Positions 3,736-9,397 of a stretch of DNA of 10,275 bases are shown here, piece after piece; positions within the stretch are counted from its first letter, which is position 1, and every line of letters begins with the position of its first letter. Where the stretch lies: positions 1 to 10,275 of the forward strand of contig JAHZKM010000055.1 of NCBI GenBank assembly GCA_022600395.1, given 5' to 3'. The DNA is from Pseudomonadota bacterium (GTDB lineage Bacteria > Pseudomonadota > Gammaproteobacteria > PS1 > Pseudothioglobaceae). The position numbers and the translations under genes are program-made. The notes beneath the pieces were generated by a model that saw only the letters and a list, made by a program, of their open reading frames with translations, did not search any database and had not been told where the DNA came from.

Positions 3736-4320
3736 CTATAGCATCGGAATCTTGTTAAAGATTCTAAGTGGTTTAGAGAATGAAGAACGCAACATGTTTA
3801 AATCACGCTGCATCCACTGCATAGAATCTTGCATAGTGGTCATATTTTTATTCATCTCTTCCATGTTAATTAACATTGGCTCTAGTGAATCCATTTTTAC
3901 ACTAACCTGAGTCAAATCAACCGCAATAGAATCTAATGAATTAAGTTTTAAGGCGATGGTATCCATGTTTTTATCAACTTTTGAAAAGCTCTTTTGCATT
4001 TGCGCCACTGAGACAGTCATCTGATTTACATTTTTAGAAAGCGTTTCAATACTCTCAGTCATAGAAGACATATTGCCACCCATATTAGGATCCATAGAAT
4101 TGGCAAGACGCGTCATATCGCTAGTTATTGAATAAATAACAATGAAGAATCCCATAATAATCGCACTAAAAACTGCTAATGCAGGTAGAAACATGCGCTC
4201 AAATTTTGAATCAGTGCGTTTGTCTGCATTTTCAAGCATTTTTTCCAAGTCGGAAATGCTTGATGTGATCATCACTTCATCATCTTTAATAGATTCTGGT
4301 TTTTGCTTACTGTCTGTCAT
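3736..4320 (-). CDS. Hypothetical single-pass membrane protein with methionine-rich coiled coil
   Basis: I do not recognise a named family. The 194-residue product has a charged N-terminal part (1-42), one strong membrane helix (about 43-66), and a long C-terminal part that is almost certainly coiled coil. From Met80 to Leu136 hydrophobic residues fall at strict 4-3 spacing. After an irregular stretch at 136-146, the register resumes and reaches Leu177. The 23 methionines are about 12% of the protein, and seven consecutive core positions (149, 153, 156, 160, 163, 167, 170) are all Met. With no cleavable signal peptide and KRTDSKFER just before the helix, an N-in/C-out topology with a periplasmic rod is likely. 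Start: ATG at 4320, preceded by AAAGGT at about 6 bases. It sits 21 bases after aroB and 2 before gatC. It may oligomerise or act as a scaffold; its function is unknown. Confidence 0.85.
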   Translation of the reverse strand: MTDSKQKPESIKDDEVMITSSISDLEKMLENADKRTDSKFERMFLPALAVFSAIIMGFFIVIYSITSDMTRLANSMDPNMGGNMSSMTESIETLSKNVNQMTVSVAQMQKSFSKVDKNMDTIALKLNSLDSIAVDLTQVSVKMDSLEPMLINMEEMNKNMTTMQDSMQWMQRDLNMLRSSFSKPLRIFNKIPML

Positions 4321-4341: not shown

Positions 4342-5418
4342 TTAACAAAAATCCCCAATTACTTGATCTAGATGATCTTTTTGATAGTTATCACTAATAT
4401 ACGCCTCACCTAATTTTTTTAATAAAATTAGTCGAATATTGCCATCAATTACTTTCTTATCAACGCGCATGGCCGACAAGAACTCAGAAGCACTAATTTT
4501 ACCGTCTACACTGATTGGTAAATTAGATTTTTCTAATAAATCTTGCACTTGATCAATCTCTTGAGGAGTTAAATCACCTAATAATTGTGATAATTTCGCT
4601 GCCATTAACATACCTACTGAAATTGCCTCACCATGCAAAAAGACGCCATATCCCAATGTATTTTCAATCGCATGACCAAACGTATGGCCCAAGTTTAACA
4701 ACGCTCGCTTGCCTGACTCCAACTCATCTTGTGCAACAATGCTGGCTTTATCTGCACAAGATTGATAGACTGCCTGGATAATTAAATCCTTATTTCTTTG
4801 CATTAAATTTTGAATATTCTCTTGCAAAAATGTCAAAAAATTAACATTGCCTAATAAACCGTATTTAATCACTTCGGCCATGCCTGCAGAATACTGCCTA
4901 TCATCTAAAGTATCTAGTGTGTCTACATCGATCACCACACACTTAGGCTGATAAAAAGCGCCAATCATATTTTTGCCTAACGGGTGATTAACGCCTGTTT
5001 TGCCACCCACGCTTGAATCAACCTGAGACAGCAACGTGGTTGGAATTTGAATAAAACCTACACCACGCTGATAGCTACTAGCAGCAAAACCAGTCATATC
5101 ACCTACAACGCCGCCGCCTAAGGCGATCAAGGTACATGAGCGGTCAAAACGATTTGCCAATAGTGCGTCAAAAATTAAATTAACTGTATCCAATGTTTTG
5201 TATTGTTCGCCATCAGGCAGCTGCACCTCAGCGACATGAAACGAACTCAATAAAGATTTCACTTGCTCTAAATACAGCGGTGCAACTGTTGTATTGGTTA
5301 CAATCATCACTTGCTTTCCAGCAATATGATTGATGAGTAATTTTGCTTGATCCAACAACCCTTGGCCGATATAAATAGGGTAAGACTTCTCTGCTAAATC
5401 AAGTTCTAATATTTTCAT
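4342..5418 (-). CDS. aroB: 3-dehydroquinate synthase
   Basis: AroB is the cytosolic NAD- and metal-dependent enzyme that converts 3-deoxy-D-arabino-heptulosonate 7-phosphate to 3-dehydroquinate, step two of the shikimate pathway. The 358-residue product has the normal length. It shows the NAD-binding glycine stretch ALGGGVVGDMTGFAASSYQRG (near 99-119) and the following PTTLLSQVDSSVGGKTGVNH segment (126-145). The metal ligands are visible as Glu182 (AEVIKYG), His245 (LNLGHTFGHA) and His262 (LHGEAISVGM). All expected catalytic regions are present. Its ATG overlaps the ileS stop by one base (TAATG), so it is co-transcribed and probably translationally coupled with ileS. In many gammaproteobacteria aroB follows aroK; no aroK is seen here. 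Confidence 0.97.
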   Translation of the reverse strand: MKILELDLAEKSYPIYIGQGLLDQAKLLINHIAGKQVMIVTNTTVAPLYLEQVKSLLSSFHVAEVQLPDGEQYKTLDTVNLIFDALLANRFDRSCTLIALGGGVVGDMTGFAASSYQRGVGFIQIPTTLLSQVDSSVGGKTGVNHPLGKNMIGAFYQPKCVVIDVDTLDTLDDRQYSAGMAEVIKYGLLGNVNFLTFLQENIQNLMQRNKDLIIQAVYQSCADKASIVAQDELESGKRALLNLGHTFGHAIENTLGYGVFLHGEAISVGMLMAAKLSQLLGDLTPQEIDQVQDLLEKSNLPISVDGKISASEFLSAMRVDKKVIDGNIRLILLKKLGEAYISDNYQKDHLDQVIGDFC

Positions 5419-8186
5419 TAAGCAAACTCTCGTTTTTCGCCACTACCAGCCACATTTTCAACACAGCGACCGCAAAGCTCAGTATGTTCAGCATTTTGAC
5501 CAACATCTTCTCGATGATGCCAGCAGCGCACACATTTTTCATGAGCTGAGTGACTGACCACAACAAACACACCCTCACCCGCTTCGACACACTCATCAGT
5601 TTTATCCTGCAAAGGGTGAATGCGTGCATAAGAAGTGATAAAGACAAAACGCAACTCATCGCCCAACTGACTGAGCGCTTCTGTGGTTTTGTCATCACAA
5701 TACAAATCCACTTCTGCATCTAGTGAGGAACCAATAATTTTATCGCTACGCATAGATTCCATCTGTTTGCGAATAAATGGATTAATATTTCTTGCTGTGT
5801 CAATTGCCGTGTTTTGATAGCCTGATAACAAACCCTCATACCATTCGCTTAAGAAAATACTTTGTGTTTTTTCATCAGGCATATTCTGCCAAATTTCTTC
5901 TGCTGTAAACGACAACACGGGCGCAAGCCAGCGAACCATTGCCTCAAGGATATGATTAAGCGCTGTTTGTGCACTGCGTCTTGCTCTTGAATTTTCTTGC
6001 ACGGTGTATTGCCTATCTTTTATCACATCTAGATAAAAACCACCCAAATCATTACTGCAGAAATTTAATATTAATTGCAATGCATGGTGAAAATTATACT
6101 GCTCATAAGCTTGTAAAATTTGCACTTGCAAATCAGCTGTTTTAGAGACAATCCATTTATCCAAATCTAGCATTTGATCAGCATCTAGCGTATGTTGAGC
6201 AGGATCAAAGCCACTGGTATTTGCCAACATAAAACGCAGCGTGTTACGAATACGTCGATAAGAATCCGCTGAGCGATTTAAGATTTCATCAGATACTGTC
6301 ATCTCGCCGGTGTAATCAGTAGAGGCAATCCACAAACGCAAAATATCCGCACCTAAATTATTAACCACTTTTTGCGGACTCATGACATTACCCAATGACT
6401 TGCTCATTTTTTTGCCGTCTTTATCAACGGTAAAACCGTGCGTTAACACTTGCTTATAAGGCGCCTTGCCATTAATTGCAACTGATGAAATTAGTGATGA
6501 TTGGAACCAGCCTCGGTGTTGATCAGAGCCTTCTAAATATAAATCTGCCACATCAGATAACGCCTCTCTTGCTTTAAGCACTGCAAAATGGCTAACACCA
6601 GAGTCAAACCAAACATCGAGCGTATCAGTGGCTTTTTCATAATCATCTGCATCGGCGCCGAGCAAATCTTGAATATCTATCTCAAACCACGCCTCAATCC
6701 CTTGCTTTTCAATCATCGCTGAAATTTCAACAAATAATGCTTGAGTGTTAGGGTGCAGCTCTCCTGTTTGTTTATGAGTAAACAAAGTAATTGGCACACC
6801 CCAGAATCGTTGGCGAGAAATACACCAATCAGGGCGATTGCTCACCATAAGCTCAATGCGCTTCTTACCCCAATCTGGAATCCAATCTACCTTGGGAATC
6901 TCAGAATTTACCGCATCACGCAAGCCATTATCTTGCATTGACACAAACCATTGTGGCGTTGCTCTGAAAATAACCGGTGTTTTATGGCGCCAACAATGCG
7001 GGTAAGAATGCACTAATGGCGCATGCTTTACTAGAGTATTACTTGACTTTAAAAGCTCAATTACACTGGCATTTGCCTTAAAGATAAACTGACCAGCGAG
7101 TAGCTCAGTATCCTCAAAGAACACCCCACGCCCATCAACTGGACAATTAACCGGTAAATCATATTGCTTACCTACTGCAAAGTCTTCCTGACCATGCGCA
7201 GGTGCAGTATGTACAGCACCTGTTCCAGCATCGGTAGTCACATGATCACCTAAAATAATCGGTACTTGCTTTTCATAAAATGGATGCTGAGCTTTTAAAC
7301 CTTCTAGCTCACTGCCGCTAAATACCGCCGCTTGAATGCCAGCTTCAAGCTCGTAGCGTGACAAAGCAGACTCAGCCAAATCTTGAGCTAATAATAAATA
7401 CTCCGACCCTGTATCAGCAAGCACATAGTTAAACTCTGGGTGCAATGCAACTGCTTCATTTGCTGGCAACGTCCAAGGAGTAGTAGTCCAAATAACAACA
7501 GAAACAGGCTTGTCTACTTTAAAAATCGTATCATCAATAATTCGAAATTTGACATCAATCGCATCTGACTGCTTGTCTTTGTATTCTACTTCAGCTTCTG
7601 CTAAAGCCGAGCCACAGTCAGTGCACCAATGCACCGGCTTATAACCTTTAGAGACATGTCCATTATTAACAATCGCACCAAGGGCGCGTACGATATCCGC
7701 CTCATATTGAAAATCTTTAGTAAGGTAAGGGTTGTTCCAATCACCCAAAATACCCAAACGCTGAAAATCAAGCTTTTGCTTAGCCACTTGAGCATCAGCA
7801 TATTTACGACATTCAGCTCTAAATGCATTGGCATCAATCTTGACTCCAACCTTGCCTTTTTTCTTTTCAACATTCAGCTCAATTGGCAAACCGTGACAAT
7901 CCCAGCCTGGCACATAAGGTGCATCAAAGCCCGACAAAGACTTTGACTTAACAATAATGTCTTTTAATACTTTGTTAACCGCATGACCAATATGAATATC
8001 ACCATTGGCATAAGGGGGGCCATCATGCAGTGTAAATTTAGGCTTACCTTGATTATTTTTTCTAATTTGTGCATACAAATCATCCTGTTGCCATTTTTTA
8101 AGAAATCCGCCTTCACGATTCGCAAGGTTTGCTTTCATGGCAAACTTGGTGGCAGGCAGGTTTAAAGTGGATTTGTAATCAGACAT
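5418..8186 (-). CDS. ileS: Isoleucyl-tRNA synthetase
   Basis: IleRS is a class I synthetase that charges tRNA(Ile) and hydrolyses mischarged Val-tRNA(Ile). The 922-residue protein is full length for the bacterial form. The catalytic fold has HIGH at 65-68 ([13 protein letters not shown]), [10 protein letters not shown] (94-103) and KMSKS at 593-597. The editing domain has [13 protein letters not shown] (233-245) and [16 protein letters not shown] (321-336). The C-terminal zinc finger is intact: Cys885, Cys888, Cys905 and Cys908 in a CxxC-x16-CxxC arrangement. These features fit the zinc-tailed type common in gammaproteobacteria, as opposed to the eukaryote-like mupirocin-resistant type. A sigma-70-like promoter lies 35-63 bases upstream with a short leader, so no T-box or long leader control is seen. 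It is the first gene of a run extending to gatB. The frequent downstream partner lspA is absent; aroB occupies that place. Confidence 0.98.
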
Positions 8187-8281: not shown

Positions 8282-8395
8282 CTACTTTTTAGATCTAAAA
8301 TAAAGCTTTAAATAAATAGCCAACGCCGCAGAAGCAAGCATAAAAAAGACAGCTGCCCAAAAGACGCTGTCTGTATTTAATTCATTAATAGGCAT
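8282..8395 (-). CDS. Small single-pass membrane peptide A (37 aa), paralogue of neighbouring B
   Basis: This 37-residue frame has no family I recognise. It begins MPINELNTDSVFW, continues as a hydrophobic stretch of about 17 residues (FFMLASAALAIYL in its second half), and ends basic (YFRSKK). That layout predicts one membrane helix with the acidic N-terminus outside and the basic C-terminus in the cytoplasm. Its first 13 residues match those of the upstream peptide B at 9 positions (both carry NELNTD and VF), with S/T and W/Y as conservative changes. The membrane segments have drifted apart. The conserved N-terminus in two consecutive frames is the main evidence that both are real genes. A weak ribosome site, AGAG, stands 8 bases before the ATG. 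No convincing promoter precedes it, so it is likely co-transcribed with B. It could be an accessory subunit of a membrane complex, by analogy with known micropeptides, but nothing shows which. Confidence 0.72.
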   Translation of the reverse strand: MPINELNTDSVFWAAVFFMLASAALAIYLKLYFRSKK

Positions 8396-8406
8396 AAGTA
8401 TTTCTC

Positions 8407-8426
8407 TTGTTGTTAAAACACAACAA
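8407..8426. repeat. Inverted repeat between the two small genes
   Basis: TTGTTGT (8407-8413) and ACAACAA (8420-8426) form a perfect 7-base stem around a 6-base loop. The structure lies in the 60-base spacer and touches the weak ribosome site of the downstream peptide gene. It is AT-rich and has no U-run after it, so it is not a convincing terminator. It could influence translation of peptide A or mRNA stability. Confidence 0.35.
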
Positions 8427-8455
8427 TAATATAGGCTTATTGGGAATATGGCCTG

Positions 8456-8578
8456 CTATTTTTTAAAGAATTTAAATCTTCTGCCGATAACAAAAATAAT
8501 AAAACTAACGATAGCCAATGCAACCATTAATAGGCTCATATAAAATACCGTATCGGTGTTGAGTTCGTTCATAATCAT
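8456..8578 (-). CDS. Small single-pass membrane peptide B (40 aa), paralogue of A
   Basis: This 40-residue frame is also of no family I recognise. It begins MIMNELNTDTVFY, has a hydrophobic helix of about 19 residues (roughly 12-30, ending IIFVIG) and a strongly basic tail (RRFKFFKK). By the positive-inside rule the N-terminus faces the periplasm. The ATG at 8578 is preferred over the in-frame ATG at 8572, because AAGGA lies 7 bases before the first and 13 before the second. With the first start, the shared NELNTD motif falls at residues 4-9 in both peptides, so they align without a gap. It is the first gene after a promoter with an FNR-like box and precedes peptide A by 60 bases. An activated, probably oxygen- or redox-dependent expression is inferred. 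Length and helix layout resemble oxidase-associated micropeptides such as CydX or CcoQ, but there is no sequence match that I can claim. Confidence 0.78.
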   Translation of the reverse strand: MIMNELNTDTVFYMSLLMVALAIVSFIIFVIGRRFKFFKK

Positions 8579-8585
8579 TGTTGTG

Positions 8586-8590
8586 TCCTT
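8586..8590 (-). promoter_or_regulatory. Ribosome binding site of small peptide B
   Basis: AAGGA on the - strand stands 7 bases before the ATG at 8578, an ideal distance. A good ribosome site in front of such a short frame supports real translation and decides between two nearby ATGs. Confidence 0.65.
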
Positions 8591-8610
8591 TTCTTTTCTT
8601 TAACAACAAC

Positions 8611-8616
8611 ATTCTA
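8611..8616 (-). promoter_or_regulatory. -10 element of the small-peptide promoter
   Basis: TAGAAT on the - strand matches the TATAAT consensus at five of six positions. Standard spacing puts the start point near 8604, with a leader of about 26 bases to peptide B. No -35 hexamer is needed if the upstream activator box is used. Confidence 0.5.
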
Positions 8617-8638: not shown

Positions 8639-8652
8639 TTGACCTAGATCAA
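8639..8652 (-). promoter_or_regulatory. FNR/Anr/Dnr-like activator box
   Basis: Reading the - strand gives TTGATCTAGGTCAA, one base from the FNR consensus TTGAT-N4-ATCAA and a match to the TTGAT-N4-GTCAA form used for Anr/Dnr sites. The symmetry extends outwards over 22 bases (8635-8656), with 10 of 11 base pairs matching. The centre, between 8645 and 8646, lies at -41.5 relative to the start predicted from the -10 element at 8611-8616, the standard class II activation position. The box is 12 bases after the rluB stop codon and points at the small-peptide genes. Other CRP-family regulators with the same half-site cannot be excluded. Confidence 0.62.
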
Positions 8653-8663
8653 ATATATACAGA

Positions 8664-8679
8664 TTAAACTATAGTTTAA
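8664..8679. repeat. Perfect 16-base palindrome across the rluB stop codon
   Basis: TTAAACTATAGTTTAA is its own reverse complement. It covers the last codons and the TAG of rluB and is separated from the FNR-like symmetry by 7 bases. It might be an additional operator upstream of the small-peptide promoter, or simply a chance AT-rich palindrome; a terminator is unlikely because there is no loop and little GC. Confidence 0.3.
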
Positions 8680-9397
8680 CTGCATTAAGAAGCAATTTAA
8701 CCTGTCCAGGTTTTAGGTAGTCGTACTGATTAGCTTTTAGATTTTCAGGCAGTCGAATTTCTCCAAAACGAATACGGATCAGGCGTGAAACTTTAAAACC
8801 TAAAGACTCCCAAAGGCGCCTAACTTCACGCTTACGCCCTTCTTTTAATACCACTTTATACCAACGATTTGCCCCTTCACCACCACCAATGGTAACTCGA
8901 TCAAACTTGGCAAATCCGTCTTCTAGCTCAATACCTGTGGTCAATTGCTTGATATCTTCACTCTCCACTTGACCCAACACTCGAACGGCGTATTCACGAT
9001 CAATCTGCGAACTAGGGTGCATCAGCTTATTAGCCAAATCACCATTATTAGTAAATAGCAATAAACCTGACGTATTAAGATCCAAGCGCCCTACCATGAC
9101 CCAGCGCGATTCTTTAGGCAATAAGCTATAAACACTCTTGCGCCCTTGGTCGTCCTTATTGGAGCAAATCACACCCGCTTGTTTATTAAGGATTAATACC
9201 TTAGTTTCTTCCTCTTGATAACGCTCAAGATCCACACCTCTACCGTCAATTTTTACTTTATCAGTTATCTCACATTGATCGCCAATTTGAGCAACTTTAT
9301 TATTAACTTCAATGCGCCCTTGTTCAATCAGCCTTTCTGCCCAACGGCGCGAGCCATAACCAGCCGATGCAATAAGCTTTTGTAATCGTTCAGCCAT
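8669..9397 (-). CDS. rluB: 23S rRNA pseudouridine synthase, RluB type
   Basis: The enzyme isomerises a uridine of 23S rRNA (position 2605 for E. coli RluB) to pseudouridine during large-subunit assembly. The 242-residue product has an N-terminal S4 RNA-binding domain (about 3-50, starting RLQKLIASAGYGSRRWAERL) and the RsuA/RluB/E/F catalytic domain. The catalytic motif GRLDLNTSGLLLFTNNGDL (103-121) contains the nucleophile Asp106. Further family features are REYAVRV (134-140) and the KVVLKEGRKREVRRLWESLG segment. It is shorter than E. coli RluB because it lacks the long basic tail. It begins 2 bases after the trpS stop with no strong ribosome site, which suggests coupling. RluB is chosen over RsuA, RluE or RluF because rluB often sits in the trpS neighbourhood; sequence alone supports the subfamily less firmly than the fold. 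Confidence 0.9.
   Translation of the reverse strand: MAERLQKLIASAGYGSRRWAERLIEQGRIEVNNKVAQIGDQCEITDKVKIDGRGVDLERYQEEETKVLILNKQAGVICSNKDDQGRKSVYSLLPKESRWVMVGRLDLNTSGLLLFTNNGDLANKLMHPSSQIDREYAVRVLGQVESEDIKQLTTGIELEDGFAKFDRVTIGGGEGANRWYKVVLKEGRKREVRRLWESLGFKVSRLIRIRFGEIRLPENLKANQYDYLKPGQVKLLLNAVKL

Follow-up and report, generated by a model that had tools for sequence, protein, structure and literature searches.

Tandem Single-Helix Membrane Proteins of Thioglobaceae Are Related to Small Open Reading Frames between ccoP and ccoG of cbb3 Oxidase Operons

Introduction

The small subunits described for terminal oxidases include CcoM and YnhF, and such subunits have so far been found singly, by mass spectrometry of purified complexes (PMC9264385). 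CcoM is a 36-residue subunit of the cbb3 oxidase (PMC10433244). In Campylobacter jejuni, CcoX and CcoY are encoded after ccoP and are needed for full oxidase activity, with CcoX being essential and CcoY (33 residues) being important for oxidase activity (PMC8267372).

Here, we analyze two adjacent small genes, A and B, in a stretch of 10,275 nucleotides (hereafter the window) from a Pseudomonadota bacterium (assembly GCA_022600395.1, contig JAHZKM010000055.1). Like CcoM of Pseudomonas stutzeri (NF041600; PDB 5djq chain N), their products span about 36–40 residues with one helix; unlike CcoM, they occur in two or three tandem copies, and sequence homology between the two is not demonstrable. 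CcoQ/FixQ, a cbb3 subunit, is likewise small with a single helix, but A and B have no match to PF05545 and do not lie between ccoO and ccoP. Thioglobus has a CcoQ-like open reading frame (ORF) of its own between ccoO and ccoP (identified by reading), and the profile similarity to this protein is weak and not convincing (7.8 bits, with 85 of 2000 shuffles scoring as well).

Results and Discussion

Two Tandem Genes for Single-Helix Membrane Proteins

The window comes from a marine sulfur bacterium with a Thioglobus/SUP05-type genome of 1.18 Mb (G000), and its minus strand carries, in this order, a trpS-like gene, rluB, A, B, and ileS. Gene A (8456–8578, minus strand, start ATG at 8578) encodes the 40-residue single-helix membrane protein MIMNELNTDTVFYMSLLMVALAIVSFIIFVIGRRFKFFKK, and its paralogue, gene B (8282–8395, minus strand), which follows downstream after a spacing of 60 bases, encodes the 37-residue single-helix membrane protein MPINELNTDSVFWAAVFFMLASAALAIYLKLYFRSKK. 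Two frames of 40 and 37 codons had been put forward here in an original prediction made from the DNA letters, and both are present on the minus strand. A second ATG, two codons into A, would give a product starting MNELNT, which corresponds to the MNEL start of some of the cbb3-linked relatives described below. The upstream neighbor (8669–9397, minus strand) carries S4 and PseudoU_synth_2 domains, and we take it to be the RluB-type pseudouridine synthase; the downstream neighbor (5418–8186, minus strand) is presumably the isoleucyl-tRNA synthetase gene ileS, from its domains, with synteny being considered for both neighbors and the other gene names in the window likewise being assigned from sequences and domains.

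Purine-rich stretches resembling ribosome sites precede both frames on reading of the sequence, as had been predicted (AAAAGGA at 8586–8592 before A and AAGAGAA at 8402–8408 before B, both on the minus strand). Alignment bears out the proposed sharing of NELNTD and VF, with the motif N-E-L-N-T-D-x-V-F occupying identical positions in A and B at an overall identity of 42% (MAFFT). Each protein also has the expected single membrane helix and basic C-terminus, with one hydrophobic segment (Kyte–Doolittle 19-mer maximum of 2.79 in A and 2.23 in B) and a net charge of +5 (A) or +4 (B) in the last 12 residues. Membrane topology follows the positive-inside rule, and, because their tails are basic, the N-termini of A and B would face out.

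We note also short TTGTTG/CAACAA inverted repeats near both starts (window positions 8406–8429 and 8577–8611, by reading), which might fold into weak hairpins surrounding the ribosome sites of A and B. Elsewhere in the window, a minus-strand frame at 3736–4320 encodes a 194-residue membrane-anchored, coiled-coil-like protein, for which the best 25 of 54 Pfam matches all fall below cut-off, and a search of the whole window against Rfam at gathering thresholds gave no RNA element match.

Conservation, Selection, and Decay

The pN/pS ratio of A is 0.17 in frame (10 sequences) and 1.01–1.07 in the shifted frames, and that of B is 0.37 in frame (8 sequences) and 0.99–1.40 in the shifted frames, such that the excess of synonymous over nonsynonymous substitution that had been suggested as a check is found in frame and absent from the shifted frames. 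A and B are real coding genes under purifying selection. The protein database holds five close homologues of A, and a profile of 30 rows (A2, with 26 rows from rluB–ileS-gap loci and four database relatives of A) retrieves 36 database proteins at E ≤ 10, the weakest at 1e-6, with the named records encoding relatives being Candidatus Thioglobus, SUP05, Bathymodiolus-symbiont, and Ruthia/Ruthturnera genomes. The pair had been described as unannotated, but the frames are not left out everywhere, as 9 of these 36 proteins carry a source-given name, always "hypothetical protein" or "uncharacterized".

At least one copy is present in all 12 searched genomes of the genus (the window genome included), and across the family a peptide match at E ≤ 0.01 is found in 22 of 83 genomes. 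The anticipated conservation of synteny holds at 20 of the 21 loci checked, where rluB and ileS flank the copies; the one exception, a match in genome G437 (E 0.007), was taken as chance, since it is not in the rluB–ileS gap, although it is nevertheless counted as a match in the CcoP/peptide contingency given below. That A and B are chance open frames has practically no probability left, being ruled out by the pN/pS values, the codon-position pattern, and the conservation, and opposed also by the database homologues, the genus-wide presence, the synteny, and the promoter site described in the next section; on this point, the original prediction of tandem paralogous genes stands. It further held that the motif is kept and the membrane segment has diverged: the helix of A is indeed unlike that of B, but each is conserved within its own orthologues. 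A further conjecture was that the two helices would touch either separate subunits or one another.

The B frame is open in 9 of the 12 genomes of the genus (with the start in G006 taken as given) and broken in the other three (G007, G008, and G009), and in G007 and G009 the size of the rluB–ileS gap is almost unchanged despite the broken B. As a separate observation, at loci L005, L006, and L009 the broken B coincides with a common altered site upstream of A, TTAACCTAGGTCAA. In the symbiont genus g2, partly decayed copies are found in five genomes (G012, G428, G429, G430, and G431), where rluB and ileS stay, and the remaining 7 of 12 genomes have no peptide match; at five g2 loci (L119, L120, L122, L124, and L039), A or B is variously decayed and a Thioglobus-type CcoP is retained. 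Broken frames between conserved flanks had been named in advance as a sign against genuine genes, and this pattern applies in part, to B in three of 12 genomes and to the decayed g2 copies. A third copy, C, is located further upstream in four genomes (G003, G005, G006, and G011). Because A and B, or their remnants, occur together in genera g1, g2, g6, and g8, the A/B duplication probably predates these genera.

An FNR/ANR-Type Site Upstream of Gene A

An FNR/ANR-type palindrome, TTGATCTAGGTCAA, with a score of 10/10 is located at 8639–8652 (minus strand), its center 67 bases before the start of A, and a putative −10 element, TAGAAT with a TG extension (8611–8616, minus strand), starts approximately 29 bases after the palindrome center. 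In class II FNR promoters, the site stands at −41.5, and the TAGAAT of A is found at the distance expected for such a promoter. Gene A thus has the palindromic site at promoter distance that is expected of an FNR/ANR-type regulated gene.

For scoring, TTGAY-N4-RTCAA was compared with the 100 bases spanning −130 to −31 of each upstream region, with decayed copies and the B of G006 excluded. Ten of the 16 A promoters carry a perfect site (10/10) and four score 9/10, with G010 scoring 7 and G002 scoring 8, and three of the four C promoters are perfect, the fourth scoring 9/10; of the 7557 control windows drawn from these loci, 0.56% reach 10/10 and 4.05% reach 9/10, although the A and C counts are not independent trials because the sequences are related. 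A good FNR-type site is found in none of the 12 B upstream regions, all of which score ≤7/10. We propose that A and B would form one operon. The FNR-type sites of A and C are unlike each other in sequence, and in three C promoters (G003, G005, and G011; loci L004, L008, and L007) the hexamer is, by reading, 12–14 bases closer to the site than in the A promoters; given this shorter spacing, C is possibly under different control from A.

An FNR-type site is also found 118–123 bases upstream of ccoN in G001, G005, G018, and G026, and no nearby site is found in G012, G017, G020, and G429, making four with and four without among the eight assessable genomes (G032 was excluded, and the ccoN starts were set by reading). 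In two genomes of the genus, moreover, such a site precedes a norC-like gene after ccoNOQP (L196, 7585; L198, 7482).

Crp/Fnr-family helix-turn-helix domains are present in 9 of 10 genomes searched, G000 included. Two of these regulators, L210 (G000, contig C50) and L218 (G001, approximately 4 kb after norB), have a P-E-S-F-S-R recognition helix, and E..SR in a recognition helix reads TTGAT. These two, together with L217, L222, and L223, which have the same recognition helix, carry four C-terminal cysteines (C-x2-C-x7-C-x7-C) and lack an FNR-like cysteine cluster at the N-terminus; such regulators may represent a variant sensor of oxygen or NO. Four others (L207, L208, L209, and L214) have an N-terminal C-x2-C.

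From these promoter features, we infer that A and B may be induced by low oxygen through an FNR-type regulator. Furthermore, because of the FNR/ANR-type promoter, and because the ccoN site is alike in some genomes, we propose that A and B would be made at low oxygen together with the oxidase. However, Cbb3 protein is higher in oxic than in anoxic culture of a cultured SUP05 strain (PMC6509183), and CcoN and CcoP are higher in aerobic culture of P. stutzeri (PMC10433244), and simple anaerobic induction fits neither result.

Relatives between ccoP and ccoG

Searching 369 genomes of the class with profile A2 gave nine matches at E ≤ 1e-3 outside its own family (best E 5.7e-10; genomes G093, G088, G242, G382, G119, G133, G226, G330, and G350), and each of the nine is an ORF with one helix, 38–59 residues long depending on the choice of start, that lies between ccoP and ccoG. 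As A2 was built without knowledge of cbb3, we consider the recovery of this slot in nine of nine cases to be the key result of this work. At L074, a locus from a Piscirickettsiaceae genome bin, the flanking CcoP and CcoG pass the NCBIfam cut-offs, and at the other loci these proteins are tblastn matches to the L074 pair. Upon adding these relatives (profile A4), matches at E ≤ 0.05 were obtained in 70 of the same 369 genomes, of which only the best loci were placed: 25 of the 29 outside loci fetched lie in the slot, the nine A2 genomes included, and the four off the slot are a short, unplaceable locus (L156), one with an internal stop (L160), and frames of 291 (L162) and 30 residues (L165). 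A CcoQ-like frame is also present at 22 of the 25 in-slot A4 loci.

Profile A6, which contains no Thioglobaceae sequence, was applied to 398 phylum genomes with a threshold of E ≤ 1e-3. No match was obtained in 371 of these genomes, and 25 of the 26 outside loci lie in the ccoP–ccoG slot (the exception, L257, has an internal stop), with 24 of the 25 belonging to a single family of another class (f207) and the remaining one to the class of the window. In the reciprocal direction, A6 retrieves gene A of the window at E 1.5e-4, and a profile–profile comparison matches A2 to A3 with a probability of 98.8% (E 7.6e-17), although this match is partly circular because A2 found A3. A typical form of the slot family outside the class of the window is MDAVVIGTIISLVGTLIVIGYLAYKIIRLVNSDEGE (L237), and the intermediates MNTDAVFWGS..., MGDLNNDWVLWGS..., and MNELNNDWVLWAS... 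lead to the Thioglobus form NELNTDTVFYMS. A and B belong to the same family as the ccoP–ccoG ORFs, with which they share the bidirectional profile match, the single helix, and a D-x-V before it. The slot ORFs span 34 to about 60 residues, and A and B are, by hydropathy, likewise single-helix proteins of under about 60 residues. The differences are that A and B are duplicated and lie outside the cco operon, that their C-terminal tails are basic and those of the slot ORFs often acidic, and that the extended NELN start is present in only part of the slot relatives. Rather than between ccoP and ccoG, which are approximately 58 kb apart in G001, the Thioglobaceae copies are found in the rluB–ileS gap (20 of 21 loci).

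The D-x-V of the shared motif is invariant in 22 aligned cbb3-linked relatives, which fits the suggestion that the exposed N-terminus may bind a common partner; given the cbb3 linkage of the relatives, an oxidase subunit would be the likely partner. The original prediction also knew of no family with this motif: neither A nor B nor any of six cbb3-linked relatives tested reaches the cut-off of a Pfam or NCBIfam family, but relatives do occur in cbb3 operons elsewhere. Alignment scans gave best single-member E values of 6.8e-4 (Pfam) and 4.5e-4 (NCBIfam), listed without their cut-offs, and searches of the PDB with A2, A3, and A6 gave chance-level matches only. The titles and abstract starts of the open-access literature searched contain no description of the ccoP–ccoG ORF or of the SUP05 peptides. 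In the protein database, profile A7 found 353 proteins at E ≤ 0.1 among 978 candidates, and the best 120 of these 353 include Thiomicrospira and Thiomicrorhabdus proteins named "hypothetical protein". The slot family resembles CcoX and CcoY of C. jejuni in that these are single-helix small proteins encoded after ccoP (PMC8267372). CcoX, however, belongs to DUF4006, which is not among the Pfam matches of A, B, or the relatives scanned.

These data also bear on whether A and B have no tie to cbb3 and belong instead among general stress micropeptides under FNR control or among peptides resembling type I toxins, for which one could cite the short hydrophobic helix, the basic tail, and the tandem copies. 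The strong purifying selection, the conserved hydrophilic N-terminal motif, the relatives in the ccoP–ccoG slot at 25 of 29 and 25 of 26 loci, and the failure of A and B to reach the cut-off of any Pfam or NCBIfam model all speak against such a role, and the weak similarity (E 0.0052) of one A2 member to a type II toxin model is at chance level for single helices; we therefore regard it as highly improbable.

Comparison with CcoM

The similarity to CcoM extends to the genomic setting. The CcoM model NF041600 scores above cut-off in two of the 369 class genomes (G196 and G397), and at both loci, as for A and B, there is an FNR-type site upstream (TTGACATCGGTCAA with its center at −74 at L166 in G196, and TTGACGAGTATCAA with its center at −116 at L167 in G397, both by reading), and no cco genes are recognized within 1.5 kb. 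Size and layout being alike as well, A and B might be true orthologues of Pseudomonas CcoM, and, of 18950 NCBIfam models, NF041600 is indeed the one that cbb3-linked members match most often (3 of 22, best E 0.016). Yet the unrelated Syndecan domain of Pfam is matched by four of the same 22 (best E 0.011), none of the 30 A2 sequences has NF041600 among its matches, which places them outside the curated CcoM model, and the CcoM chain of PDB 5djq is absent from the matches listed for A2, A3, and A6 at E ≤ 10. Moreover, when A6, A2, and A4 were compared with three CcoM sequences, at least 196 of 2000 segment-wise shuffles reached the real score in each of the nine tests, such that the profile scores are no better than those of shuffles. 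We thus consider orthology to CcoM very unlikely. By analogy, A and B may work like CcoM, yet we do not file them as CcoM, homology having been tested and not demonstrated.

Proposed Role in the cbb3 Oxidase

With their relatives located between ccoP and ccoG, beside a CcoQ-like frame, the obvious reading is that of a small cbb3 subunit or assembly factor, and we consider A and B likely to be small subunits with an accessory or assembly function in the cbb3 oxidase, a respiratory enzyme of high affinity for oxygen, that were relocated and duplicated in Thioglobaceae. Their closest wider relatives are the small genes found between ccoP and ccoG in various other Pseudomonadota. In Thioglobaceae, the gene would have moved to the rluB–ileS gap, a direction that we infer, been duplicated to A, B, and in places C, and acquired or kept an FNR/ANR-type promoter. 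The acidic N-terminus (NELNxDxVF) would be periplasmic and the basic C-terminus cytoplasmic, and the conserved N-terminal half may dock on the oxidase and stabilize or tune cbb3, as reported for CcoM.

Among the Thioglobaceae genomes, 20 have both a Thioglobus-type CcoP (E < 1e-60) and a peptide match, 13 have CcoP alone, two have the peptide alone (G027, which is 85% complete, and the chance match in G437), and 48 have neither, corresponding to a Fisher p of 1e-8 that is uncorrected for, and confounded by, kinship. Since 13 of 33 CcoP genomes have no peptide match, and four of the 20 with both have no intact copy (G012, G020, G428, and G431), cbb3 does not require the peptides in every genome. 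Several further observations count against a role in cbb3: the Thioglobaceae copies are not adjacent to cco genes, the slot form is found in one family only beyond the class of the window, B is broken in three of 12 genomes, the ccoN site is missing in four of eight, and G010 and G002 have no good A site.

Some of these same points would fit an alternative in which the family is cbb3-linked elsewhere, but the copies in Thioglobus now belong to a different membrane complex made at low oxygen (NO reductase, nitrate reductase, or another haem-copper enzyme) that shares the FNR-type regulator. These points are the location of the copies outside the cco operon and the retention of cbb3 without peptides in 13 of 33 genomes. 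In addition, ccoNOQP is followed in G001 and G005 by norC and norB (identified by reading), which are preceded by an FNR-type site. However, NorB is matched at E ≤ 1e-60 in four of 12 genomes of the genus, all 12 of which have the peptides, and in just 8 of 83 genomes of the family, so NorB is not the general partner, and we consider service to another complex to be unlikely. We retain the assignment of A and B to the cbb3 oxidase as the preferred reading.

Conclusions

Genomics alone thus points to a further candidate subunit that occupies one and the same cbb3 operon slot in two bacterial classes, and, in the Thioglobaceae lineage, to a candidate subunit gene that has been uncoupled from the operon and duplicated. 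A more far-reaching scenario, which we put forward tentatively and consider possible rather than probable, is that of a subunit family of approximately 37 residues, lacking a curated model, in the cbb3 operon of at least two Pseudomonadota classes, of which SUP05/Thioglobus would hold two or three isoforms under separate regulation, which an FNR-type switch would exchange or add on the oxidase and so tune it as cells pass the oxic–anoxic boundary. The family may be testable in culturable relatives, as Thiomicrospira and Thiomicrorhabdus proteins are among the database matches listed. As SUP05 bacteria cross the oxic–anoxic boundary of marine oxygen minimum zones (PMC6509183), a regulated set of subunits would be both testable and ecologically relevant.
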